A stretch of DNA of 64,000 nt from a virus: IMG/VR virus record IMGVR_UViG_3300010403_000705, positions 310,001-374,000 of that record; one strand, given 5' to 3'. This document shows positions 2,330 to 63,646 of the stretch, in pieces. The position numbers and the translations under genes were made by a program. The notes under the pieces were generated by a model. It saw only the letters and a list, made by a program, of their open reading frames with translations. It searched no databases and was not told where the DNA came from. Numbering within the stretch: position 1 is the stretch's first letter; each line of letters begins with the position of its first letter.

Positions 2330-3742
2330 ATGAAGATTACTGATATTCGAAATAGTGGACGATCAATGGCGGTGAAAGTAGCGAAGCGTGATGTCTCTGC
2401 CAGATATTATTTGCGGCGAGATGGTACGCCCACTCAGGATGTACAGATTGAACCATATTCTTTTCCATCGGATGTGTTTGGTATTATTGCAACATACGAT
2501 CGTCATGATTATGTAATTGCAAGCATCATTGATTTCTGTAATTCCAGCCGAGCGCCGCGGAACTATTATATTCCACTGGATTTGGAGTTTACAGAGATTA
2601 CTGCTGACGATCCTTTGTACCAAAAATGGGTCACGTATCAAACGCAGCATCTAGAGATCATGTTGCCTCATGATTTCAGTATTGGTTCTGATCCAGAGAT
2701 TTTTGTTGAGGATAAGGATGGTACGCATATTCCAGCTTTCCTATTCCTTGGATCTAAGGAGGCGCCTGATCGTACTCCTTCTTGGGGAGGTTACGATAAT
2801 AATGGTGGATGCACTATGTATTGGGATGGCTTCCAGGCAGAATTCACAACCAAAGCTGGTGGTTGTTTAGAGTATCATACAGACTCAGTAGCGGCTGGAC
2901 TTCGTGGAGTATATGATGCTGCCCGTCAGAAGTTTCCTAATGCCAGACTTAGCTTGAAGAGTGTAGTAGATATTCCCCATAGCATGTTGGAAGAAGCTGA
3001 AGATCAGTATGTAGCTTTCGGATGTATGCCCAGCTTTAATGCTTATGGAATTAGAGTAAACATGCCTCCTGCACGTGAGGTGCCTTTTAGATCTGCAGGT
3101 GGTCATATTCATTTTGGGATTGGTAAGCTTACTCAAGAGCAAGCTACTCCCATCGTCAAGGCGCTGGATGCTATTCTGGGAGTAGCGTGCGTGTCTTTGT
3201 TTGCTAACTATGATAGTCGAAAACGTAGGCATCTGTATGGTCTTCCTGGAGAGTATCGATTGCCTCCGCATGGATTAGAGTATCGACCTCTGAGTAACGC
3301 TTGGTTGTGTCACCCTTTCATCATGAATCTGGTGATTGATGTGGCAAGAAAGGTACTTGTCCTTGGGCAAAAGGGTTTGCTGAATCTGTGGCAAGGAAAT
3401 GAAGAAGAAACCATTGACATCATGATTCGTTCAGATGTAGAAGGTGCTCGTGAATCCTTAAAAAGAAACAAGGAAATCTTCATCAAAATTCTGGAATCTT
3501 GCTATGTTATTTATAATCGTTGGGCAACTCCTCAGGACCTAGAAATGTTCTATGGTATTTTCCTCAATGGATTAGAAACTGCTATCGCAGATCCTAGCAA
3601 TTTTGTCAAGAATTGGTATCTGAATGGCACTTCACGTGATAACTATGATGATAATGGTAGGGCTTGGCGCAAGCAAGCCTCTGGTTTACACGCCAATGTA
3701 AAGCGTAGCATGGATACGCTTCGCGATGGTAAGAAGCTGTAA
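2330..3742 (+). CDS. phiEco32-type COOH-NH2 amidoligase, copy 3 (470 aa)
   Basis: This is the third tandem paralog and the longest. It keeps every family signature: GSDPEIFVED, WDGFQAEFTT, GGHIHFG and GLPGEYRLPPHGLEYR. It differs from copy 2 mainly in the first 110 residues and in a C-terminal tail of about 20 extra residues containing DNYDDNGRAWRKQ. AAGGAACG precedes the ATG. Each copy has its own leader, so the copies may be separately expressed and may use different acceptors through their divergent N-termini. That specialisation is inference. A strong terminator follows. Confidence 0.88.
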   Translation: MKITDIRNSGRSMAVKVAKRDVSARYYLRRDGTPTQDVQIEPYSFPSDVFGIIATYDRHDYVIASIIDFCNSSRAPRNYYIPLDLEFTEITADDPLYQKWVTYQTQHLEIMLPHDFSIGSDPEIFVEDKDGTHIPAFLFLGSKEAPDRTPSWGGYDNNGGCTMYWDGFQAEFTTKAGGCLEYHTDSVAAGLRGVYDAARQKFPNARLSLKSVVDIPHSMLEEAEDQYVAFGCMPSFNAYGIRVNMPPAREVPFRSAGGHIHFGIGKLTQEQATPIVKALDAILGVACVSLFANYDSRKRRHLYGLPGEYRLPPHGLEYRPLSNAWLCHPFIMNLVIDVARKVLVLGQKGLLNLWQGNEEETIDIMIRSDVEGARESLKRNKEIFIKILESCYVIYNRWATPQDLEMFYGIFLNGLETAIADPSNFVKNWYLNGTSRDNYDDNGRAWRKQASGLHANVKRSMDTLRDGKKL

Positions 3743-17365: not shown

Positions 17366-18091
17366 ATGTGTGGTATTTCAGGATTTACAGGTGTAAAAAA
17401 TCTTAATACTCGTGTCAAGTTAATCAAAGGTTTTGGACCTAGTATTGATCGCAGGGGATATGCGGCTGCCGGATTCGTTACTTCTAATGAAGCGGGAGAG
17501 ATAACTTTTCAAAGAAAAGTTCTTGGTTGGACAAGAGCTGATGAAGAATTTATTCTAGCGGCTGCTTCTGGTGATATGTGTATGATGCATTCACGAGGTC
17601 CTTGGACCTCAGTAGACACTGATGCTCATCCGTTTCCTGTTTCTAGAGATGGAAAAATTGTATTGTGGGGCGCTCATAATGGAGAGCTTGATCAAGCATG
17701 GGAAAGTGCTCGTCATCATAATAGAGATATTACCGTTGATAGTATGGAACTTTTTGAATTGATCGCTGATGCTCAATATAATCAGCTAAATACCATGTAT
17801 GGTTGGGGAGTAGCTGAATGGGTAGAAGCTAGCTCGCCACGTCAAGTTAAATTAGCTTGTATTTCTGACTATGCGGATTTAGTAGCTGTGTCTTTGGTAG
17901 GTGGAGGTGCAGCGTGGGCTAGCACTATGGATATTCTTAAAATTGGTCTAACCAATGCTGGTTTATCAATTAAAGAACATTATCCAATTCTAGGAAATAC
18001 TGGACGCGTCTTTGTTGCAAATGAAGAGGGTATCTTTCCAACCGAAGATACGCGAGTCTATACAAAAAATCAAATGGCATTTTGGAAATAA
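17366..18091 (+). CDS. Class-II glutamine amidotransferase domain protein, copy 1 (241 aa)
   Basis: It begins MCGISGF, so Met removal exposes the catalytic Cys nucleophile of an N-terminal-nucleophile glutaminase. Other conserved parts are HSRGPW (75-80), AHPF (87-90), WGAHNGEL (101-108) and DSMELFELI. It would release ammonia from glutamine. No synthase domain is fused, so the ammonia must serve a partner, most likely the amidoligases or the ATP-grasp enzyme encoded nearby. A second copy is at 31688. Confidence 0.85.
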   Translation: MCGISGFTGVKNLNTRVKLIKGFGPSIDRRGYAAAGFVTSNEAGEITFQRKVLGWTRADEEFILAAASGDMCMMHSRGPWTSVDTDAHPFPVSRDGKIVLWGAHNGELDQAWESARHHNRDITVDSMELFELIADAQYNQLNTMYGWGVAEWVEASSPRQVKLACISDYADLVAVSLVGGGAAWASTMDILKIGLTNAGLSIKEHYPILGNTGRVFVANEEGIFPTEDTRVYTKNQMAFWK

Positions 18092-18096
18092 AGAAA

Positions 18097-18282
18097 ATGA
18101 CAACTATGGCTTCATTTCAAGAGAAGTTTGCTATTAAACTTGACACTAATAGCAGAGTTATGTGTAATTATAAAAAGGAAGGTATGCCGGCTTGCAATTG
18201 TTGCAATCCAATCATGCCATGTTCTTCTAGCTCTGGTATATGTGAAGATTGTTTTCAATGGTTAAAAAACCCCAGTGAATAA
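18097..18282 (+). CDS. Cysteine-rich small protein (61 aa)
   Basis: It contains CNCCNPIMPC and GICEDC, which suggest a zinc knuckle. I start at the ATG at 18097, after AATAAAG; the in-frame TTG at 18082 lies within the previous gene. The family is unknown. Confidence 0.5.
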   Translation: MTTMASFQEKFAIKLDTNSRVMCNYKKEGMPACNCCNPIMPCSSSSGICEDCFQWLKNPSE

Positions 18283-18309
18283 ATAATATCACATAAAGGA
18301 ATGTAATAG

Positions 18310-19293
18310 ATGGATAGGCGTGAATATAATGTTGTTTGTAGATTCTCTAATGGTCGTCTTCATAATGAACTATGGACGTTTGAAGGACTAGAAGATAAAA
18401 GTACACAAGCAATAAGAGAATGTCTATCCATCTATGAAAAATATGATCCTCAAGATGTTCCTATTGTCTTAGGTGTAGAATGCCTTCCAAGCAGGGATTT
18501 AAATATTGATTTTCAACTTCTAAAAGATATGTCATATATCCGATCAATTTGTGATTTGGGTAGAAAAATTAGAGCTACTAATAATCTAGCAGTTAGACAG
18601 CCATTAAGTGTAGGTTATGTATATTTTTCAGATTATGCTACACGCTCTAGTTGTCAGTCTAGAAGATATATAAGAGAAATGGGTGATCTTATTGAAAAAG
18701 AATTGAACATTAATGAAATCATTTTTATTAATGATGTAGGTGATAATTCTTTATTTGATGTCATCTTAAAACCAAATTTCCGATCTTTGGGTCCTAAAGG
18801 ATATGGTAAATTAGCACAACCCGTAAAAAAGTTAATGGAACAACTTCCAACGTTTATGAGTAATAGTTTATATGAAAGACTATTACTAGGACCTATTAAT
18901 GACTTTGGTTTTCCTATTTCTCTAGAAGATGTAGAAGTAGGTCTCAAACCTAAGGAAGGCTTAAAATCATTGTCCAATGATTGTGGTGCTATCATTCTGG
19001 ATACTAGAATCTCTCCTCTCATGAAAAGAAAAGGATTGGTTTATAATGTGAAATCTTGCATTCAACAATGTAGGCGTGCTTTAAATCTTGACCTACAAGA
19101 TTATGTGAATATGACTTTATATTCTAGAGACGCAGATCTTGTATTTGGTGTAGAAGAATTCTCACATTTCCTTAAAAATGAATGTTTAATTGATGTTTTA
19201 AATTGTTATGATCAACCAAATGTTTTAAATTTAATGGATGATTCAAGTTCTTTTGTTTTTGATACATTCTGCATTCATATGAAAAGGATTTAA
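18310..19293 (+). CDS. Orphan isoleucyl-tRNA synthetase C-terminal (tRNA-binding) domain
   Basis: From residue 70 on it follows the C-terminal region of eukaryotic/actinobacterial-type IleRS: IRSICDLGRKIRATNN, LAVRQPL (93-99), ELNINEI (131-137), KPNFRSLGPKGYGK (154-167) and LDTRISPLMKRKGL, then IQQCRRALNL. In IleRS this region lies after the anticodon-binding helical bundle and helps hold tRNA-Ile. HIGH, KMSKS and the editing domain are absent, so it cannot charge tRNA. It may bind tRNA-Ile, block or redirect the host enzyme, or act on the odd phage tRNAs. Residues 1-70 are unassigned. Confidence 0.85.
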   Translation: MDRREYNVVCRFSNGRLHNELWTFEGLEDKSTQAIRECLSIYEKYDPQDVPIVLGVECLPSRDLNIDFQLLKDMSYIRSICDLGRKIRATNNLAVRQPLSVGYVYFSDYATRSSCQSRRYIREMGDLIEKELNINEIIFINDVGDNSLFDVILKPNFRSLGPKGYGKLAQPVKKLMEQLPTFMSNSLYERLLLGPINDFGFPISLEDVEVGLKPKEGLKSLSNDCGAIILDTRISPLMKRKGLVYNVKSCIQQCRRALNLDLQDYVNMTLYSRDADLVFGVEEFSHFLKNECLIDVLNCYDQPNVLNLMDDSSSFVFDTFCIHMKRI

Positions 19294-19297
19294 TTAA

Positions 19298-20005
19298 ATG
19301 ATTTCTAAATCTAAAAAATCTACAATTATTACTTCTTCTAGTGGGGTGGAAGCTAAATCATATGTGCCACTTGATATGATGATGAAGCAATACTCACATC
19401 CATCAACTATAGTCTCAGTCTCTTCAGGATATGAAGTGAGTGGAGGTTTGCGAACAGCCGGTAGCAAAGCTACTGCTAAATTCGAACCCTATGGTGAATT
19501 AAGATCTATGATTGATGAAGTGATTACTAATTCGGTTACTCTTCGTAATCCATTTTTTATGAGGATTCGAGCACGTTTCATGTCTGAGGTAGAATTCATT
19601 AATAACCATGCTTCAGGTACATTGCGCAAAAATGCTAGAGTTGGTTTCGATTATAAAAAACAATTATTACATGAACGGATCGCATTTGATTTTGGGTATG
19701 CCTTTGAAGCAATTCATGAAAGTCATGTCAACTGGGGCTCTCCTTTAACTGAAGGTGATTGTCATGCCATTACCGAAGCGGGTTGGCATATTGATAGATA
19801 CCAATATGTATCTTTTCCTGGAGACGAATTTGAAGCAAAATATCTTAAAATTCATACAGGTCATAGTCGTGATCGTGAGGGCGTGGGAATTATTATTAGA
19901 AAAACATCAGCCCCTTACGTTCCAAATAATTATGTAGTTTTCTCTCTAATTGCAGAAGTTGATACACAGACTCATGATTATATGAATGCTGTAAACCCTT
20001 GCTGA
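19298..20005 (+). CDS. Hypothetical protein (235 aa)
   Basis: An alpha/beta protein without recognised motif, starting 4 bases after the IleRS-like gene and so in its operon. The central part (RARFMSEVEFINNHASGTLRK) and a C-terminal strand-rich end (VVFSLIAEVDTQ) are the most structured parts. The function is unknown. Confidence 0.6.
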   Translation: MISKSKKSTIITSSSGVEAKSYVPLDMMMKQYSHPSTIVSVSSGYEVSGGLRTAGSKATAKFEPYGELRSMIDEVITNSVTLRNPFFMRIRARFMSEVEFINNHASGTLRKNARVGFDYKKQLLHERIAFDFGYAFEAIHESHVNWGSPLTEGDCHAITEAGWHIDRYQYVSFPGDEFEAKYLKIHTGHSRDREGVGIIIRKTSAPYVPNNYVVFSLIAEVDTQTHDYMNAVNPC

Positions 20006-22674: not shown

Positions 22675-23664
22675 ATGCCCGTAATTAATTGGACTGAAAT
22701 TACATCTTTTCATAACATTAACAAATATGCTAAAAGCGTTCCAGAGATACTTAACCATTATCCATCGGTAATGTATCGGGCTAAAATTAAGCTACATGGC
22801 AATAATGCGGCAATTCAAATTCATTCTGATGATCGCGTTTTGGCTCAAAGTAGAACTACAGAGCTTAGCCCAGGTAATGATTTAGCTGGATTTGCGAAAT
22901 GGGTAGAAGAAAATGCAAGTGCCTGGCGTAATAATGCTTCAGGTCTTATTGTATTTGGTGAGTGGTGTGGGCATGGTATCCAAAGTGGAACAGCTCTCAA
23001 TAACTTACATGAAAAGATTTTTGCTGTTTTTGCTGCACGATGGTTAGATGACGAGGATTCTCTAATCGTAGATCCAGAAGAATTACAAGAGCTTCTTAAA
23101 GGAAAAGACATTCCTGGAATGTATATACTTCCATGGCACAATGATCCAATTGAAATAGACTGGTGCGGCAATGAAAGCTCATTAGATGTTAAGGCTTCGT
23201 TAATTAATGAATGGGTGTTAGCTATTGAACAAAATGATCCCTGGGTAGAGAAGACCTTTAACATTAAAGGTACTGGAGAGGGATTGGTATTCTACCCTAT
23301 ATCTAAACAACACTTGGGTTATAAGAATTATTGTAATTTAGTTTTTAAAGCCAAAGGTGAGGCTCATCGCGTTGTTAAGACTAAGACATCTGTACAGGTA
23401 AATCCAGAAGCTGTGGAAAATAGCAATTTATTTGTAGATATGGTTCTTACCACAGCTCGATTAGAGCAAGGTGTACGTTCTGCTAGTGTAGATGGATCGC
23501 TAACATTTAGTAATAAATTTATTGGAAAATTTATAAATTGGATTCTAAATGATGTGCAAAAAGAAACAACAGCAGAACTAGAAGCCTCTGGATTGCAGTG
23601 GAAACAAGTACAAAAATTACTAGGAGATAAGTCACGTAATTGGTATCTAAGTAAAATGAAATGA
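22675..23664 (+). CDS. RNA ligase (Rnl2-like nucleotidyltransferase)
   Basis: This is an ATP-dependent RNA end-joining enzyme. Nucleotidyltransferase motifs are visible in order: motif I KLHG with Lys39 as the AMP-accepting lysine, FGEW (94-97) for motif III, EGLVFYP for motif IV and LVFKAKGEAH for motif V. The length (329 aa) fits Rnl2-type ligases. In phages such enzymes reseal host or phage tRNAs cut by defence nucleases. Here RtcB (53022) offers a second, chemically different ligation route in the same genome. Confidence 0.8.
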   Translation: MPVINWTEITSFHNINKYAKSVPEILNHYPSVMYRAKIKLHGNNAAIQIHSDDRVLAQSRTTELSPGNDLAGFAKWVEENASAWRNNASGLIVFGEWCGHGIQSGTALNNLHEKIFAVFAARWLDDEDSLIVDPEELQELLKGKDIPGMYILPWHNDPIEIDWCGNESSLDVKASLINEWVLAIEQNDPWVEKTFNIKGTGEGLVFYPISKQHLGYKNYCNLVFKAKGEAHRVVKTKTSVQVNPEAVENSNLFVDMVLTTARLEQGVRSASVDGSLTFSNKFIGKFINWILNDVQKETTAELEASGLQWKQVQKLLGDKSRNWYLSKMK

Positions 23665-28306: not shown

Positions 28307-28675
28307 GCTGGAGTATAAAGATTTTTCAAGAGCCTTAGACTCTTGAAGCAGACTTGTTTTATTAAGGCGTTGACGGGCGGTAATGTATATTATTGCCACG
28401 AGCCAAGATGAAATAGGAAATGAATTTTTATAAAATTCATTCAATTATTAGTAGTTATTATTAAGTAGATATGGAATGTATTAATACAAAGTAGTTGGGA
28501 ATATTAAATTAACCTATTATAGAGTGTTAATACATGGTCTTACTCAGTATAGTAAATTCACGTGCGACCATGACTGCCAGGGAAATGGGTGAATGAATTA
28601 CATTGAGCAATACCAAACGTCAAGTTAGTTTAAGATAGTAAAACATGAATTAATGTGTATTAGTTAAGTTTATAG
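28307..28675 (+). other. Non-coding leader upstream of a tRNA, with several hairpins
   Basis: There is no supported gene. Visible folds are TTCAAGAG/CTCTTGAA (28325-28347, a probable terminator), AATGAATTTT/AAAATTCATT (28419-28441), and a fold at 28533-28601 where CATGGTC/GACCATG competes with ATTCAC/GTGAAT. The last region shares GTGCGAC followed by a purine-rich GGGAA segment with the element at 6134. Possibly a structured RNA. Confidence 0.35.
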
Positions 28676-28748
28676 AGTAGAATATTGTATCGGTAGCATA
28701 ACTTGGTTTAAATCCAGGAAAGTACAGGTTCAATTCCTGTTTCTACTT
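28676..28748 (+). tRNA. tRNA with UAA anticodon and short variable loop
   Basis: A complete cloverleaf of 73 bases. Acceptor AGTAGAA/TTCTACT, D-stem TTGT/ATAA with loop ATCGGTAGC, anticodon stem CTTGG/CCAGG with loop TTTAAAT (anticodon UAA, codon UUA), variable AAAGT, and T-arm ACAGG-TTCAATT-CCTGT. No CCA is encoded. UAA means Leu, yet Leu tRNAs normally have a long variable arm, so charging identity is uncertain. Two class II UAA tRNAs also exist (52563, 63523). Confidence 0.75.
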
Positions 28749-28850
28749 TAAATTAATTGATCAATTATTTTAGATGGATGTTCGTTTCATTCACTTGACG
28801 CCAAGAAAATTCAAAATTGATTCAAAATTAAACAGAAGGAATATTGTCTT

Positions 28851-29604: not shown

Positions 29605-31686
29605 ATGGATGAAGAAGAGAATGATTTAGTAAATGACGCAGAGCCAGTACAACCCATCGAACCACTAGATGTAGGAGCGGATGTTCCAGTAATAGCTCCA
29701 GTGCCAATACCACCACCACCACCTCTTCCTCAACCTCGTCCTGTTCCTTTTATTAATAATTATGAAAGGATTAGACCACAAGCGATTTGGATGGAAGATG
29801 AACCCCGTAATGACTACTGGGAATATGAAAACCAACAGGCTCGTGAGGAGGATTTTAGGGTAAGGTTGCAACGTTATAGACAGGTCGCCGCCGCCGGCGT
29901 CGCGCCGTGGCTTAATAGAGATTGGGAAATTTGGTCGCAACAGAACGTGGGCGCAGCTCACCCAGTACCTAATCCTCATATTCCGGTGCCCAGAAACCCA
30001 AATATAAATCAATTTATAAACCAAATTATTAATAATGAGGAAATAAGAGAGCGTCACATGAATTATGATCAGTTGGTAAGAAGATATCCATCATTGGTAG
30101 ACAGGTATCTTCCTGATTTATCCAATAAGGCTAATGCTTTGAGTGCATTACGAAGTATTGAATCTGATAGAAATGCAACTCTAGAAGAGAAAACGGCACT
30201 TCGTGATTATGTAGGCAATCACGAAGTAGCATCTGTTTATAACTATCAGTGGTGTGTTGACTGCGAATCAATGGTAGGGCATCCTAATCATACACATTGT
30301 CCACATTGTATTTATCCATGTACTGTTGTTGAGCCGGGTCATGTTAATCCTCCATCCAATACTCAGTTAGCAGTATGTGGATTTTGTGGAGAATGTTGTC
30401 GTAGTAAAGGTCATAGATACTGTCCTACTTGCAATACTCACAGTGATAGATTATGTCGACATTGCAGTAAATGTACTGCTTGCTGTGCTTGTCAACTTTG
30501 TCCCGCACGAGGTTGTCAAGAGATGCAAGAATGTAATGATTGTTGTAATTGTCTCGATCATTGTACCTGTCCAGCACTACAATCTAATGGTACATATGGT
30601 AAATCTTTTCCAGCTTTCAAAAAGAAAGAGCGTCGACTGTTTGATTGCCAACGTCTAGCTGGTGTAGAGTGGGAGTACAATCGATTATCTACACAAAGAT
30701 ATTTCGACCATTGGGTAAAGAAGTGGTTAGCGGATCGGCACCAAGATGATTCATGCGGTTATGAAGCCGTTACAGCTCCCATCGCTGGCGACTACATGGT
30801 CAAATGTATAGAGGCTTTGGGAAAAGTTTTTGAAAAGAGTAAGGCGTCAATTGATAATCGATGTTCAATTCATGTACATGCAGATGCAAAAGACCTTCAG
30901 TGGTCAGATATGTTCAGACTGTTGAAAGTCTATTCGATTGTAGAACCTGTTCTTTATATGTTAGCAGGGCAAGAACGCCTCGATAATAGATATTGTGTGC
31001 CCTGTGGTAAAGATTATGCTGCTGCTCTTGAAAGGATTGATCGTAAAGATGCAGTCATGGCTGTAGCATTTACTCCCATTACACGTGATGGAAGAAAAAG
31101 TGAAGTCAATCTTATTCCTGATAATGGTCGCAATTCACAGCGTGCCAAACCAGGAAAACGTGCCGATAATCATGCGTATTGTCGACGCAAAGGATTGAAC
31201 ATTCTTCCTTGGTTGGCTGGTCGAGGACCTCGACCAAACACTCCAGTTAGCATCGTAACTCAAGCCAATGATACAATTGAAAAAATTGCGCAACGCAATA
31301 ATGTTTCAATTGCGGCATTGATGCGTTGGAATAAGATTAAACCTGGTACGCGTTTTGCGGCTGGACAAAGACTTATCGTCAATAAGCGTATTGTGGCACC
31401 TGATACTACAGTGGAGTTTAGAATTCACCCTAACACACATGATGCTAATCGTGTTATTAATTGGGTGAAAGTTATACTGCGTTTGGTTGATTGGGCAGCT
31501 AAATCAACTGATAACGATTTAGAGAAACTTCCTAAGTCAGCCCTTAGGATTCTCTGTCAAGTCATTGCACCCGAATGTGCTCCTTGGATCATGTCGAGAG
31601 TGCAAGAGTGGCGTAAGGAAACATCAAAAATCAATGGACGTCACGAGCGTCGCATTAGCCTAAAGGGCGGAAAGTACAGTTACTAA
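29605..31686 (+). CDS. Zinc-ribbon/amidoligase/LysM multidomain protein (693 aa)
   Basis: Order: acidic and Pro-rich tail (1-50), helical part (60-205), a Cys/His cluster with about 30 Cys (217-322; many CxxC), and an Amidoligase_2-type catalytic domain. The catalytic domain shows GVEWEY (353-358), CGYEAV, SIHVHAD (421-427) and, after an insertion, EFRIHPNTHD (604-613). The insertion includes a LysM domain (547-592: VTQANDTIEKIAQRNNVS, then NKIKPGTRFAAGQRLIV). LysM binds N-acetylglucosamine-type sugars, so the ligase may act near peptidoglycan or another glycan; this is inference. It is flanked by an ATP-grasp ligase and a Gln amidotransferase. Confidence 0.8.
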   Translation: MDEEENDLVNDAEPVQPIEPLDVGADVPVIAPVPIPPPPPLPQPRPVPFINNYERIRPQAIWMEDEPRNDYWEYENQQAREEDFRVRLQRYRQVAAAGVAPWLNRDWEIWSQQNVGAAHPVPNPHIPVPRNPNINQFINQIINNEEIRERHMNYDQLVRRYPSLVDRYLPDLSNKANALSALRSIESDRNATLEEKTALRDYVGNHEVASVYNYQWCVDCESMVGHPNHTHCPHCIYPCTVVEPGHVNPPSNTQLAVCGFCGECCRSKGHRYCPTCNTHSDRLCRHCSKCTACCACQLCPARGCQEMQECNDCCNCLDHCTCPALQSNGTYGKSFPAFKKKERRLFDCQRLAGVEWEYNRLSTQRYFDHWVKKWLADRHQDDSCGYEAVTAPIAGDYMVKCIEALGKVFEKSKASIDNRCSIHVHADAKDLQWSDMFRLLKVYSIVEPVLYMLAGQERLDNRYCVPCGKDYAAALERIDRKDAVMAVAFTPITRDGRKSEVNLIPDNGRNSQRAKPGKRADNHAYCRRKGLNILPWLAGRGPRPNTPVSIVTQANDTIEKIAQRNNVSIAALMRWNKIKPGTRFAAGQRLIVNKRIVAPDTTVEFRIHPNTHDANRVINWVKVILRLVDWAAKSTDNDLEKLPKSALRILCQVIAPECAPWIMSRVQEWRKETSKINGRHERRISLKGGKYSY

Positions 31687-31687
31687 T

Positions 31688-32674
31688 ATGTGTGGACTGA
31701 GTGGTTTTATTGGATTGCCGTTATCTAAAGATGAAAAGCTGATGCTTGTTTTAGGTCTCGGCGATGGCATCGACAATCGTGGTGGACATAGTTGTGGATA
31801 TGTCAGCGTTGCTGAGGATGGTAATCTTCAGTATGCCAGAAAAAAAGGCACATGGATTCGTGCTCGTATTAGATTTACTGAGGGCGCTGCTTCTGAAGTA
31901 TGTATGATGCATGCTCGTTGGGCAACTTGTGGTAATAAAGAGGATCCAATGAATGCGCATCCGTTTTCTATTCGACGTAATGGACGTGTAGTTATGTGGG
32001 GCGCACATAACGGTATGGTTCCTGATGCTTTTAAGAGTGCTAAGGCACATGGTCGCGATATCAATGTAGATTCTCAAGAAATTTTTGAGCTTCTTGCTGA
32101 TAAGAATTACGAAGGCATTCGAGAGATGTCTGGCTATGGTGTGATTACTTGGATTGATACTGATCATCGTGATTATGTTAATCTCGCCAGGCTTTCATCT
32201 CATTCCGATATTTGCGTAGTCAGTGTCAAGGGTGGTGGTGTAGTCTGGGCATCTACTTGGAAAATTCTTAAGGAAGCTCTTAAGTTAGCTGATCTAGAAG
32301 TGGATCGTGAGTTTAAGATTGACGAAATCGGTCGAGTATATCGTATTCGAGCTGATGGTGTCTTCAAAACCAAACTAGATGGTATCAAAGTTGGAACCTA
32401 TAATAAGTTGACCAAAACACAAACCACCGTTGGTTCTACGACAACTGTAGATACACCTTCAGTGCCATCTGACGAGATAGATGAAACACTTATTGTAGAA
32501 ACAAAAGTGCCAGGAGAATCAGAATATAAATATGCTTCCTCTTATGGTACTGGAGCCTCTTCAACTGTTACGAATGGCTCTGGAGTTTATTCCCCTGCCT
32601 TTTCTGCATGGCAAGGCAAGCAAGGCAATGTAGATGATGAAGAAGCGTATCGTCAATGGTGTGGGTCTGAATAA
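31688..32674 (+). CDS. Class-II glutamine amidotransferase domain protein, copy 2 (328 aa)
   Basis: It starts MCGLSGF with the nucleophile Cys2, and keeps HARWAT (75-80), NAHPF (89-93), WGAHNGMV (104-111) and DSQEIFELL (128-136). It is a paralog of the protein at 17366 with a Ser/Thr-rich C-terminal extension of about 85 residues that is probably disordered. It starts 1 base after the zinc-amidoligase stop, so translation is coupled and ammonia transfer between the two products is plausible. A strong terminator follows. Confidence 0.87.
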   Translation: MCGLSGFIGLPLSKDEKLMLVLGLGDGIDNRGGHSCGYVSVAEDGNLQYARKKGTWIRARIRFTEGAASEVCMMHARWATCGNKEDPMNAHPFSIRRNGRVVMWGAHNGMVPDAFKSAKAHGRDINVDSQEIFELLADKNYEGIREMSGYGVITWIDTDHRDYVNLARLSSHSDICVVSVKGGGVVWASTWKILKEALKLADLEVDREFKIDEIGRVYRIRADGVFKTKLDGIKVGTYNKLTKTQTTVGSTTTVDTPSVPSDEIDETLIVETKVPGESEYKYASSYGTGASSTVTNGSGVYSPAFSAWQGKQGNVDDEEAYRQWCGSE

Positions 32675-34337: not shown

Positions 34338-35717
34338 ATGATGACTGCACGTGAGCTAGTGGGTAATTGGCTTAAAAATCAACGTAATATTGGCGTTCGT
34401 TTAGAAGACAAAAGAAACCTCATTGAAGATGTTATTATCATTACTTCTATGAGTGATTACGGTAAGAATGAAATTTATTTTGTAGGAACATACGCCAACA
34501 CCTCTGGCTGTTCTGGTTATCTTAAAGATATTGATTCGGTTTCTATCTTAGAAGGTGAAGAACTTACTAAACTGTTCTCTCTTTATGAGAAGAAACAAGT
34601 TGAGAATTTGCATTCTCAACTTTCGCATTCTGGATATGTTGGTGTATTGTCAGAATTCTTTGTAGAAGATGAAGATGGTGCATGTATTCCTTCATCTGCT
34701 TTTCTAGCTACACGTCCTTCGTCTAGCAGTAAATCATGGTATGATTCAAAAGTTGATTCACACCAAAACGGAGTTGCTGGAGAAATTCAAACAACCTATA
34801 ATTCTTGTTTAGCCATTACTATTGATTCCTTGGCTTATGGATTGAAACATTTGTCAGATTCTGCTAAGAAACTATCTAGCAAAGCTAAAGTATCTGCTAA
34901 GTCTGTTATGCCAATTTCCGATGCGATTATGCAAGCGTCTACTGATAAAATGCCTACTTTGGGTAATGCAACTGTCAGTAACGCTTACGGATTGAAACTT
35001 AATGCGCCGGATCCACGTACTGTTCCATTTCGTTGTGCGCAGTCTGCTTTACAGTTTCAGTTGTATGGTTTTAATAATCTTACTGAAGAACGAGGTAAAT
35101 CGATCGTGATGACACTGGATGCAACACTAGGAGTTGCGTGTGTGTCTTTGCTTGCGGGAATTAATCATCCAGATCGAGTTAAGCTGGGTGGTCTTCCAGG
35201 TGATTATAGGATAGTCACTTCTGCTTTAGAATATTTTTCTCTCGGAAATTCATGGATGATTCATCCTATGATTGCTAATTTGGTTTTTGATTTTGCTCGT
35301 AAATGCGCAATTCTTGGTCATAAGAATCTAGGCAAATATTGGTCGGCTTCGAAAGAAGATGTTATTTCTTGCATGATGGATTTGGATGTAGATAAAGCTC
35401 ATGCCATCATGGATCGAAATAAGGATATTATGATGAAAATTTTCCAAGCCGCTTGGCCAATTTGTAATGGTTCTAATGCGGCTGGTGTGCCCAATTTATC
35501 TAATGAAATTAAACCAGATAAAGCTAGGGATGTAATGTATGATATTTTCTATAATGGTATCACTACAGTAATTGATAATCCCACAGACATGTCTGCTAAC
35601 TGGACTTTAGATGGTACATGGATTGCTCACTCAGAAGGTGATAATAAAAATGTATGGCGTACTCTCAATGCACTATACGGTACACGCAAGTTTCCTAATC
35701 AAGTAGTACATGGTTGA
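34338..35717 (+). CDS. Degenerate amidoligase paralog (probable pseudoenzyme, 459 aa)
   Basis: It aligns along its length with the ligases at 889 and 2330 but the catalytic signatures are lost. GSDPEIFVED is replaced by LSEFFVED (104-111), WDGFQAEFTT by GVAGEIQTT, GGHIHFG by SALQFQLYG (236-244), and GLEYR by ALEYF. The structural parts (NAYGLKLNAPDPRTVPFR, LGVACVSLLAG, GLPGDYR) are kept, and the frame is intact. It may regulate, scaffold or recognise substrate for the active copies. It has its own leader (AAAGGAATT). Confidence 0.75.
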   Translation: MMTARELVGNWLKNQRNIGVRLEDKRNLIEDVIIITSMSDYGKNEIYFVGTYANTSGCSGYLKDIDSVSILEGEELTKLFSLYEKKQVENLHSQLSHSGYVGVLSEFFVEDEDGACIPSSAFLATRPSSSSKSWYDSKVDSHQNGVAGEIQTTYNSCLAITIDSLAYGLKHLSDSAKKLSSKAKVSAKSVMPISDAIMQASTDKMPTLGNATVSNAYGLKLNAPDPRTVPFRCAQSALQFQLYGFNNLTEERGKSIVMTLDATLGVACVSLLAGINHPDRVKLGGLPGDYRIVTSALEYFSLGNSWMIHPMIANLVFDFARKCAILGHKNLGKYWSASKEDVISCMMDLDVDKAHAIMDRNKDIMMKIFQAAWPICNGSNAAGVPNLSNEIKPDKARDVMYDIFYNGITTVIDNPTDMSANWTLDGTWIAHSEGDNKNVWRTLNALYGTRKFPNQVVHG

Positions 35718-53021: not shown

Positions 53022-54557
53022 ATGTCTAAAATAGAATGGACAATAGATCGAAAAAATGATTCCTGTTGCCGGATTAATAATTCTCTAGGTATAGATATTG
53101 ATCTTTTTGCAAATGATGATGTGGTTATTGATAGAGATGCCTTTCAAGAACTTTTTGATTTCTTAGATGTGCAACGCGCAATTTCTGATATTTCTTCTGC
53201 AGAAAAATCAGGAAATTTTTCTTTTTTTGGAAACCCTAATGCTGGAATTACTAAAGTTGTTTTAACTCCTGATTTTCACAAAGGCTCTGGTATTCCTATT
53301 GGAACAGTGGTGGAGAATAATGGTTTTGTTATTCCAGCAGCCATTGGAAATGATATTTGTTGTGGAATGAGATTATTAGTAACAGATATGCCAGTAACTA
53401 AATTAGAAAATCATTGGGGAACTATTCAAAAACGTTTGAGAGAAATCTTCTTTCAAGGACAACGAAACATTCCTATGTCTCCACGACAAAGAGAATCTGT
53501 TCTTCGTTATGGGTTACCAGGATTATTAGAAACCATTAAAGACAATGAAAATACAGGTATTTATCAACATTTTAATGTTAAAAATCAAATAGCTGATCTA
53601 GCCAGAGCTCATAATAATGGTGGATTTAATACCGACAGATTGTTTGGTTTTGATAAGTTGATACGCAGTTCTGGAGCCATTGACGGTAGAGATCCACAAA
53701 TTGGTTCAGTAGGCGGTGGTAATCATTTTGTAGAGTTTCAAAAAATCGAAGAAATTTTGTGTAAACAAACTGCCAGAGAAATGAATATTAACAGTGGTAA
53801 CCTAGCTATTATGATTCATTCTGGATCTGTTAGTTTAGGACACGCAGTTGGCTGGCATTTTATTGATCGTGCAAGAGAACTCTTTCCGTCTCAAATAAAA
53901 AGTCCAAAAAATAATTTCTTTGTTCTACCTACAGTTGGACCATATGCTAAAGAAGGCAAATTTTATCTAAATAGTATGAGAAATGCAGCGAATTTTGCTT
54001 TTGCTAATAGGTTATTTTTAGGTCTTATGGCGATCAAAGCCGTACAAGAAGCAATTGGTTGTTATGTAGATTCCAGACTTATTTATGACGCTCCTCATAA
54101 TTTAGTTTTTGAAAAGAATGATGGTCAATTTATACACCGTAAAGGCGCTACACCCGCAGAAGGTCCAGACAAAGTAGACCAATGGATTGGAAAACCAGTT
54201 ATTATTCCTGGGTCAATGGGCAGTGCTAGTTATTTGCTAACTGGATTAGGCAATCCAGAAGCCTTAGAAAGCGCATGTCACGGTGCAGGACGATTAATGC
54301 CTCGCGGAGTAGCCTCTCATGTAGATGATAAGATTTTTGATGATCAGACATGTGATTTGCGTATTGTGACTGCTGTAGATCCAAAATCGCCTCAAATGCA
54401 AATGAGAAAAGATATTATGATTAAATATAAAGAGAGAGTTAAAGAAGAAGCACCTTATGCTTATAAACCAATTACACCAATTATTCGATCTATTGAAGAT
54501 GCACACATTGCTAGAGTAGTAGCTAAGCTAATGCCATTGTGCACGGTAAAAGGATAG
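53022..54557 (+). CDS. rtcB: RtcB RNA ligase (511 aa)
   Basis: RtcB joins RNA 2',3'-cyclic phosphate or 3'-phosphate ends to 5'-OH ends using GTP and Mn2+. Signature residues are present: DFHKGSGIPIG (84-94), GNDICCGMR (109-117), SVGGGNHFVEF, HSGSVSLG, and the guanylated His in ACHGAGRLMPRG. The length is normal. RtcB heals tRNAs cut by host nucleases, and in archaea and animals it also joins tRNA halves after intron removal. That second role is of interest here because several tRNA genes in this window look interrupted (see findings). A link is inference. Confidence 0.93.
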   Translation: MSKIEWTIDRKNDSCCRINNSLGIDIDLFANDDVVIDRDAFQELFDFLDVQRAISDISSAEKSGNFSFFGNPNAGITKVVLTPDFHKGSGIPIGTVVENNGFVIPAAIGNDICCGMRLLVTDMPVTKLENHWGTIQKRLREIFFQGQRNIPMSPRQRESVLRYGLPGLLETIKDNENTGIYQHFNVKNQIADLARAHNNGGFNTDRLFGFDKLIRSSGAIDGRDPQIGSVGGGNHFVEFQKIEEILCKQTAREMNINSGNLAIMIHSGSVSLGHAVGWHFIDRARELFPSQIKSPKNNFFVLPTVGPYAKEGKFYLNSMRNAANFAFANRLFLGLMAIKAVQEAIGCYVDSRLIYDAPHNLVFEKNDGQFIHRKGATPAEGPDKVDQWIGKPVIIPGSMGSASYLLTGLGNPEALESACHGAGRLMPRGVASHVDDKIFDDQTCDLRIVTAVDPKSPQMQMRKDIMIKYKERVKEEAPYAYKPITPIIRSIEDAHIARVVAKLMPLCTVKG

Positions 54558-58411: not shown

Positions 58412-59170
58412 ATGGATAAAATAGTCATTGCTATTGGAGATATACATGGTTGTATTGAAGAGTTTCAAGAGTTATTGAAAACTATTCAATATAATAAAGA
58501 AAAAATGCGTGTTGTTTTATTAGGCGATCTATTAGATAGAGGTCCTGATTCTGTTGGCTGTATCAGACTAGCGCGTCAGTTAAAACTTGAATCTATTAGG
58601 GGTAACCATGAAGATACACATTTAAGGTGGCGTCGACATGAACAAAAGCGCAAAGATTTAGGTAAGCCTAATCCAATGAGTAAATTATCTTATAATAAGC
58701 AAATTGTTCAGGAAACTTTATCTGAAGAAGATATTGAATGGATAAATAATCTTCCACTAAGACTAGAACTTTATAAGAATTTATGGGCAGTACATGGTGG
58801 CTGCAGTCCTAGATTTAAATTATCAGAACAACCATCTAACCAAATTATTAGATTAAGATATGTAGACGATAAAGGGATACCACAATCGCTAGGAGAAAAT
58901 TTTTCTCAACCACCTAATACTAAATATTGGGCAGAAGTCTGGCAAGGTCCCGAATCTATTGTTTATGGTCACTGTGTTCATGATCTAAAAAATCCTAGAA
59001 TAGATGATCATGGCAGATATAAATGTATAGGCATTGACACAGGATGCGTTTTCGGTGGAATGTTAACTGCCGCTATATTCAATGTATCAAATAACAATAA
59101 CTTTGACATTGAATTTGTACAGATTGCCGCTAAGACTAAATATTATAATTTGTCTAATAAAAAAGAATAA
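58412..59170 (+). CDS. PrpE/ApaH-like Ser/Thr-type metallophosphatase
   Basis: GDIHGC, then LLGDLLDRGPDS, then IRGNHED, then VHGG and YGHCVH give the complete two-metal site of the PPP phosphatase family (diadenosine tetraphosphatase, PrpE, lambda PP type). The length of 252 residues fits. It may remove phosphate from proteins or hydrolyse Np4N nucleotides. The better start is ATG 58412, about 10 bases after AAG. Confidence 0.85.
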   Translation: MDKIVIAIGDIHGCIEEFQELLKTIQYNKEKMRVVLLGDLLDRGPDSVGCIRLARQLKLESIRGNHEDTHLRWRRHEQKRKDLGKPNPMSKLSYNKQIVQETLSEEDIEWINNLPLRLELYKNLWAVHGGCSPRFKLSEQPSNQIIRLRYVDDKGIPQSLGENFSQPPNTKYWAEVWQGPESIVYGHCVHDLKNPRIDDHGRYKCIGIDTGCVFGGMLTAAIFNVSNNNNFDIEFVQIAAKTKYYNLSNKKE

Positions 59171-63522: not shown

Positions 63523-63606
63523 GGGCAGGTGGCGAAACTGGTAGACGCAGCGTGCTTAAAACTCGCCGGATTAATCTCCGTAAGGGTTCGAATCCCTTCT
63601 TGCCCA
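63523..63606 (+). tRNA. tRNA-Leu(UAA)
   Basis: A canonical class II gene: acceptor GGGCAGG/CTTGCCC, D-arm GCG-AAACTGGTAGAC-GC, anticodon stem GCGTG with loop CTTAAAA (UAA) and CTCGC, long variable arm CGGATTAATCTCCGT, and T-arm AAGGG-TTCGAAT-CCCTT. The discriminator is A and CCA is not encoded. TCCCATC, a one-base variant of the leader heptamer, lies at 63515-63521. UUA is a heavily used codon in this AT-rich genome. Confidence 0.95.
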
Positions 63607-63646
63607 CTTATTCTTAATTTATTATTTTAAAGTAATCGAGTTTATA

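Follow-up and report, generated by a model that had tools for sequence, protein, structure and literature searches.

A gene for a free-standing IleRS2-type C-terminal protein in a jumbo phage

The window, that is, the whole 64,000-nucleotide stretch of DNA analysed here, corresponds to positions 310001-374000 in the 432,844-bp record of a very large, uncultured bacterial virus. The region of interest is collinear with an independent phage contig of 446,541 bp (G001), which was found via an RtcB 81% identical to that of this phage. At the locus, an intact open reading frame of 327 codons, running from an ATG start to a TAA stop, lies between two conserved phage genes, and is probably co-transcribed with the downstream one (Table 1). 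Its GC content of 0.31 and GC3 of 0.17 lie at or below the means of the neighbouring phage genes (0.36 and 0.24, respectively), indicating that the gene is fully adapted to the phage. The upstream gene, which resembles class-II glutamine amidotransferases, has a weak PHROG match to an aminotransferase. It belongs to a series of amidoligase-like and glutamine-amidotransferase-like genes (17366-18091, 29605-31686, 31688-32674 and 34338-35717) that is kept in G001 and may constitute a set for peptide or surface modification.

Table 1. Features at and around the IleRS-tail gene (positions in the window)
Feature	Position	Strand	Basis
Free-standing IleRS2-type C-terminal protein gene	18310..19293	+	intact ORF, PF19302, PDB, AlphaFold/Foldseek
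AAAGGA, Shine-Dalgarno-like, 9 bases 5' of the ATG	18295..18300	+	direct sequence reading
N-terminal 49 residues without IleRS similarity	18310..18456	+	IleRS2 alignment, model confidence
Residues 50-240, end of the anticodon-binding bundle and counterpart of the yeast junction domain (817-981)	18457..19029	+	8wnd/8c8w alignment; borders from PMC7955072
DUF5915 (PF19302) match, residues 126-299	18685..19206	+	Pfam
Residues 241-327, counterpart of the yeast C-terminal tRNA-interacting domain (985-end)	19030..19290	+	alignment, PMC7955072, pLDDT mostly >90
Conserved class-II glutamine-amidotransferase-like gene (MCGISG...), upstream; marks the insertion site	17366..18091	+	G001 orthologue
Small cysteine-rich ORF, 66 aa, within the inserted stretch	18082..18282	+	no G001 homologue
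Conserved phage gene, downstream; begins 4 bases past the stop of the IleRS-tail gene	19298..20005	+	G001 orthologue
RNA ligase	22675-23664
RtcB	53022-54557

Profile and sequence searches revealed that the protein resembles the C-terminus of type 2 isoleucyl-tRNA synthetase (IleRS2). The sole Pfam domain is DUF5915, which scores 67.8 bits (cut-off 27; E=1.2e-18). In NCBIfam, residues 63-298 match the C-terminus of the MupB-type plasmid IleRS (E=8e-20), and the C-terminus of MupA was also matched. The best PDB match is the IleRS2 of Priestia megaterium (8c8w, E=4.6e-16), in which residues 783-1006 of 1032 correspond to phage residues 65-298, followed by yeast IleRS, where 824-1057 correspond to phage 74-312. 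In an alignment with 55 cellular IleRS2 C-termini, the phage protein is similar from residue ~50 onwards, through its last strand and up to its last residues. The homology begins at IleRS2 residue ~769-783. Residues 1-49 have no counterpart in this alignment, and no ORF similar to them was found in four contigs (G000, G001, G003 and G004). In addition, Pfam detected neither the CP1 editing domain nor the zinc domain of IleRS1 in the protein. Judged by sequence, the match is specifically to the zinc-less, eukaryote/archaea-like IleRS2 and covers approximately its last 280 residues (phage ~50-327), and on the same basis the identity as an IleRS2 C-terminal domain is secure. It follows that the tail is homologous to that of the host enzyme only where the host uses IleRS2, not IleRS1.

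These results bear out most of the original prediction, which had recognised a stand-alone IleRS C-terminal domain by the signatures LAVRQPL, ELNINEI, PNFRSLGPKGYGK and LDTRISP and had noted that HIGH, KMSKS and the editing domain are missing. All of the signatures are found in the ORF, the PF19302, MupB and 8c8w matches lie far above chance, and the class I catalytic domain (PF00133) is absent from the frame. The prediction is refined in two respects, in that the match is to the IleRS2 type and that residues 1-49 do not resemble IleRS. In a tree of IleRS2 C-termini, the phage protein could not be placed and no donor could be named, with a branch length of 8.85 changes per site. Most likely, the protein is the tRNA-binding part of a bacterial type-2 IleRS that was taken up by an ancestor of the jumbo phage, was detached from the rest of the enzyme and gained a new N-terminus of ~49 residues.

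The yeast enzyme helps to define which part of the synthetase is present. Yeast IleRS has an anticodon-binding domain (residues 644-816) and a C-terminal junction domain (817-981), and a version ending at residue 984, which is missing the C-terminal tRNA-interacting domain, does not charge tRNA-Ile (PMC7955072). As yeast residue 984 aligns with phage residue ~240, the phage protein holds the C-terminal tRNA-interacting domain in full, preceded by the junction domain and the final helix of the anticodon bundle. By alignment, the region required for tRNA-Ile charging in yeast (985-end, phage ~241-327) is thus wholly present. However, the effect of the yeast truncation is exerted in cis, whereas the role proposed below for the phage protein is in trans, and no report of help in trans by an IleRS C-terminal domain was found in the literature searched.

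Despite an overall identity of ~25%, the phage protein keeps 16 of the 21 columns that are invariant in the 55 IleRS2s, including G84, R88, R96-Q97-P98, E131-L132-N133, G161, G166, T232, G242, Q252 and R255, which argues for a retained fold and surface. The five invariant residues that have changed are H55G, K94A, L238M, E241K and K256R, and E246, conserved in 98% of the IleRS2s, is replaced by asparagine (all in phage numbering). Moreover, residues 65-327 carry a net charge of -1, compared to a mean of -16.5 for the IleRS2 C-termini, whose segments begin slightly further upstream; the much less acidic phage version is compatible with RNA binding. Conservation and charge together are in line with a fold and an RNA-binding surface that have been kept, and contacts to the absent enzyme body have perhaps been lost.

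Structure prediction, one of the checks proposed originally, agreed with this assignment. AlphaFold reached a pLDDT of 34 without an alignment, and a pLDDT of 83.5 with a pTM of 0.72 when given a 56-row alignment. The first 60 residues are poorly modelled (block means of ~51-67), among them residues 1-49 as a low-confidence strand-strand-helix (pLDDT about 50-67), whereas most of residues 65-327 are predicted with high confidence. Structural similarity search with Foldseek against the PDB returned only IleRS C-termini as best matches: the top four are structures of P. megaterium IleRS2 (8c9d, 8c8w, 8c8v and 8c8u, with E of 5e-19 to 4e-17), and the next six are yeast IleRS chains (8z1p/8wnd). 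The model thus has the predicted fold of the IleRS2 C-terminus, consisting of the junction and the C-terminal tRNA-interacting part, and has no zinc motif. As IleRS2s were included in the alignment given to the model, the fold match supports the homology but is not an independent proof of it, and it is the sequence that carries the homology.

The original prediction had also raised the possibility of an assembly error that split a full-length IleRS. With stops read through, PF00133 was found nowhere in the 432,844 bp of the record, whereas the same search was positive in 14 of 14 control genomes, and the 327-residue frame gives the only PF19302 match of the record; the gene is thus not a split synthetase. 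It lies in the interior of the record, between genes whose order is shared with G001. The upstream gene has its orthologue at 45116-44493 of G001 (43% identity) and the downstream gene at 44173-43559 (68% identity), and the two are separated by ~0.3 kb in G001, with an unrelated small ORF inside, compared to 1.2 kb here. Together with the phage-like base composition, this makes an assembly error or a split phage or host IleRS highly improbable. Since the flanking genes are collinear and the tail gene is missing in G001, the gene is accessory, and was either inserted here together with the 66-residue ORF or lost in G001. Elsewhere in the window, the adjacent genes 889-2256 and 2330-3742 both match one G001 gene (52% and 55%), likely a tandem duplication in this phage.

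Searches for free-standing homologues covered 50,697 phage records, three scans of IMG/VR and 109 DUF5915 matches from cells, and gave none. The IMG/VR scan with the single 327-residue protein and a second motif scan with other motifs gave no match, and two IMG/VR loci that did match (L025 and L026) proved to be full-length bacterial IleRS beside prophages. The INPHARED tblastn matches MT835536 and MT835484 are likewise full-length bacterial IleRS amid bacterial housekeeping genes on unverified scaffolds; these records (MT835536.1 and MT835484.1, 'Bacteriophage sp.', L002/L003) are probably mislabelled bacterial scaffolds. Five contigs besides G001, all fragments, have RtcB or RNA ligase in common with this phage and lack the gene as well. 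Plasmid matches are synthetases where annotated. A scan of genome_contigs with a three-sequence alignment yielded 80 loci, all of which are full-length ileS or pieces of it, with the short frames mostly cut by a contig end. Two phylum samples gave 105 DUF5915 matches, of which 104 are in frames 958-1252 codons long and one is in a frame of 476; when six chosen genomes are added, giving the 109 distinct matches, all frames have at least 958 codons except two (476 and 600), and the 600-codon frame (L078) runs off its contig end. In contrast to these cellular frames, the phage ORF is not part of a synthetase of ~1000 residues.

The only possible parallel came from BFVD, in which giant eukaryotic viruses have short IleRS-like proteins, namely of 274 residues in Pithovirus LCPAC101, of 279 residues in Gaeavirus and a 349-residue fragment in Homavirus. 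Their predicted structures match and their lengths are similar, but they are from metagenomic records of eukaryotic viruses, and may be either comparable proteins or fragments. Literature searches found no paper that deals with DUF5915 or with phage-encoded synthetase tails standing alone. Together with the database searches, this agrees with the earlier statement that no described phage protein of this kind was known. No other phage in the records and papers searched has the IleRS tail as a separate gene, and its single occurrence limits the conclusions that can be drawn.

The record holds ~39 predicted tRNAs and a tmRNA, including three predicted tRNA-Ile: one with anticodon GAU (407560), one with UAU, A73 and CCA (406693), and one with UAU and a long variable arm (290541). 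The last (L019:5541-5633, record 290541-290633) has a class-II-like variable arm, and its CCA is not encoded; with a UAU anticodon, these traits are an odd mix for an isoleucine tRNA. In the 30 larger genes of the window, AUA accounts for 150 of 736 isoleucine codons (20%). Given this usage and the tRNA-Ile genes, the phage has a stake in the supply of tRNA-Ile. G001 also encodes tRNA-Ile with GAU and UAU anticodons, although its UAU tRNA looks to be of a different type, and it lacks the tail gene; such tRNAs therefore do not require the tail gene, and a pairing of the gene with tRNA-Ile(UAU) is weakened.

Further features of the tRNA complement were observed. RNA ligase, RtcB and the ~39 tRNAs constitute a tRNA-repair set in one phage. 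Two tRNA-Leu(UAA) genes (window 28675-28749 and 63523-63607) lie outside the main tRNA cluster, which occupies 401-408 kb of the record. In addition, a CUA-anticodon (amber suppressor) tRNA is encoded at L007:1637-1710 (record 58637-58710), and two and one such tRNAs are found in the relatives G001 and G004, respectively; TAG is still the stop codon in about 10% of the long ORFs of the phage.

We tentatively propose, at somewhat less than even confidence, that the protein is a trans-acting tRNA-Ile-binding accessory factor that aids the host IleRS with phage tRNA-Ile. It would bind tRNA-Ile via the anticodon side, as the same domain does inside IleRS, and the free domain would assist or redirect isoleucylation in trans during infection, most plausibly by presenting to the host enzyme the tRNA-Ile species (anticodons GAU and UAU) that the phage encodes. 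Binding of tRNA, its specificity and the cooperation with the host enzyme are steps that we infer. That such a phage cofactor would change the substrate range of the host synthetase, re-tuning it, is somewhat doubtful.

The three roles suggested originally, namely a decoy, a modulator of the host IleRS and a factor for phage tRNAs, may each still apply. As an alternative to the accessory factor, the free domain might act as a decoy or inhibitor. By competing with the host IleRS for host tRNA-Ile or by docking on that enzyme, it would reduce or re-tune host isoleucylation while the phage takes over the cell. A tRNA-binding tail with no catalytic core, encoded by an accessory and phage-specific gene, would suit such a role, for which a T4 factor that acts on a host class-I synthetase, as cited in PMC8076793, is a precedent. 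We nevertheless consider it unlikely, as a phage with tRNA-Ile genes and 20% AUA itself needs Ile-tRNA, and no PHROG match ties the tail protein to an annotated phage protein (best match E=0.31, an unannotated family). About equally unlikely is an exaptation, in which the domain has come to bind a protein or another RNA, such as phage mRNA, another tRNA or tmRNA, and owes its specificity to the new N-terminus. Proteins derived from aminoacyl-tRNA synthetases often gain new roles (PMC9437257), and the extreme divergence, the changed invariant residues and the new N-terminus point in this direction; the 16 kept invariant columns and the whole fold, retained to the last strand, speak against it.

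The domain might also cover the anticodon arm of tRNA-Ile against host anticodon nucleases, alongside the RNA ligase and RtcB. Both repair genes in the same window indicate RNA-cleavage pressure, and the domain is part of the anticodon-binding region of IleRS2 (PMC10485003); yet we can name no known nuclease against tRNA-Ile for the host, and G001 has repair genes too but not the domain, which leaves such a shield rather improbable. Still less probable is a non-functional relic of a captured ileS that is being lost. Its great divergence and its presence in only one phage among the records searched would agree with decay, but the intact frame has a ribosome-binding site and a new start region, its GC3 lies below the phage mean, the fold is predicted with high confidence, and no catalytic part of ileS is left anywhere in the 433 kb.

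Compared to the IleRS2 C-terminal domains of P. megaterium (8c8v) and of the S. cerevisiae IleRS-tRNA(Ile) complex (8wnd), the phage protein shares the profile, the predicted fold and the order of elements over residues ~50-327, but differs in its new N-terminus, its low identity and several altered invariant residues, and lacks the catalytic, editing and main anticodon-bundle domains. Free-standing synthetase-derived domains of other kinds exist, and Arc1p and Trbp111 are free-standing tRNA-binding synthetase cofactors with an OB-fold domain. They likewise have the tRNA-binding module apart from the catalytic body, but their fold differs from that of the IleRS2 C-terminus, and neither Pfam nor Foldseek (E<=0.001) matched an OB-fold tRNA-binding domain in the phage protein. 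Among phage proteins, the valyl-tRNA synthetase-modifying factor of T4 is the product of the vs gene, and to our knowledge is not derived from a synthetase domain. Similar to this factor, the tail protein is small, has no synthetase activity of its own and may target a class-I synthetase of the host. That the T4 factor modifies the valyl-tRNA synthetase of its host was reported by Muller and Marchin (1977), as cited in PMC8076793. Synthetase-derived proteins are already known in cells (PMC9437257), and huge phages carry full-length aminoacyl-tRNA synthetases that may charge phage tRNAs (PMC7162821); those phages are also large and rich in tRNAs, whereas here the non-catalytic tail occurs alone.

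Returning to the accessory factor proposed above, a synthetase tail on its own suggests a way for a phage to steer the host synthetase without replacing the enzyme. The protein would offer a direct test of whether an IleRS2 C-terminal domain can by itself recognise tRNA-Ile and function in trans. It may also be relevant to the charging of phage tRNAs with unusual anticodons. Through this free tail, the virus probably influences the handling of isoleucine tRNAs during infection.
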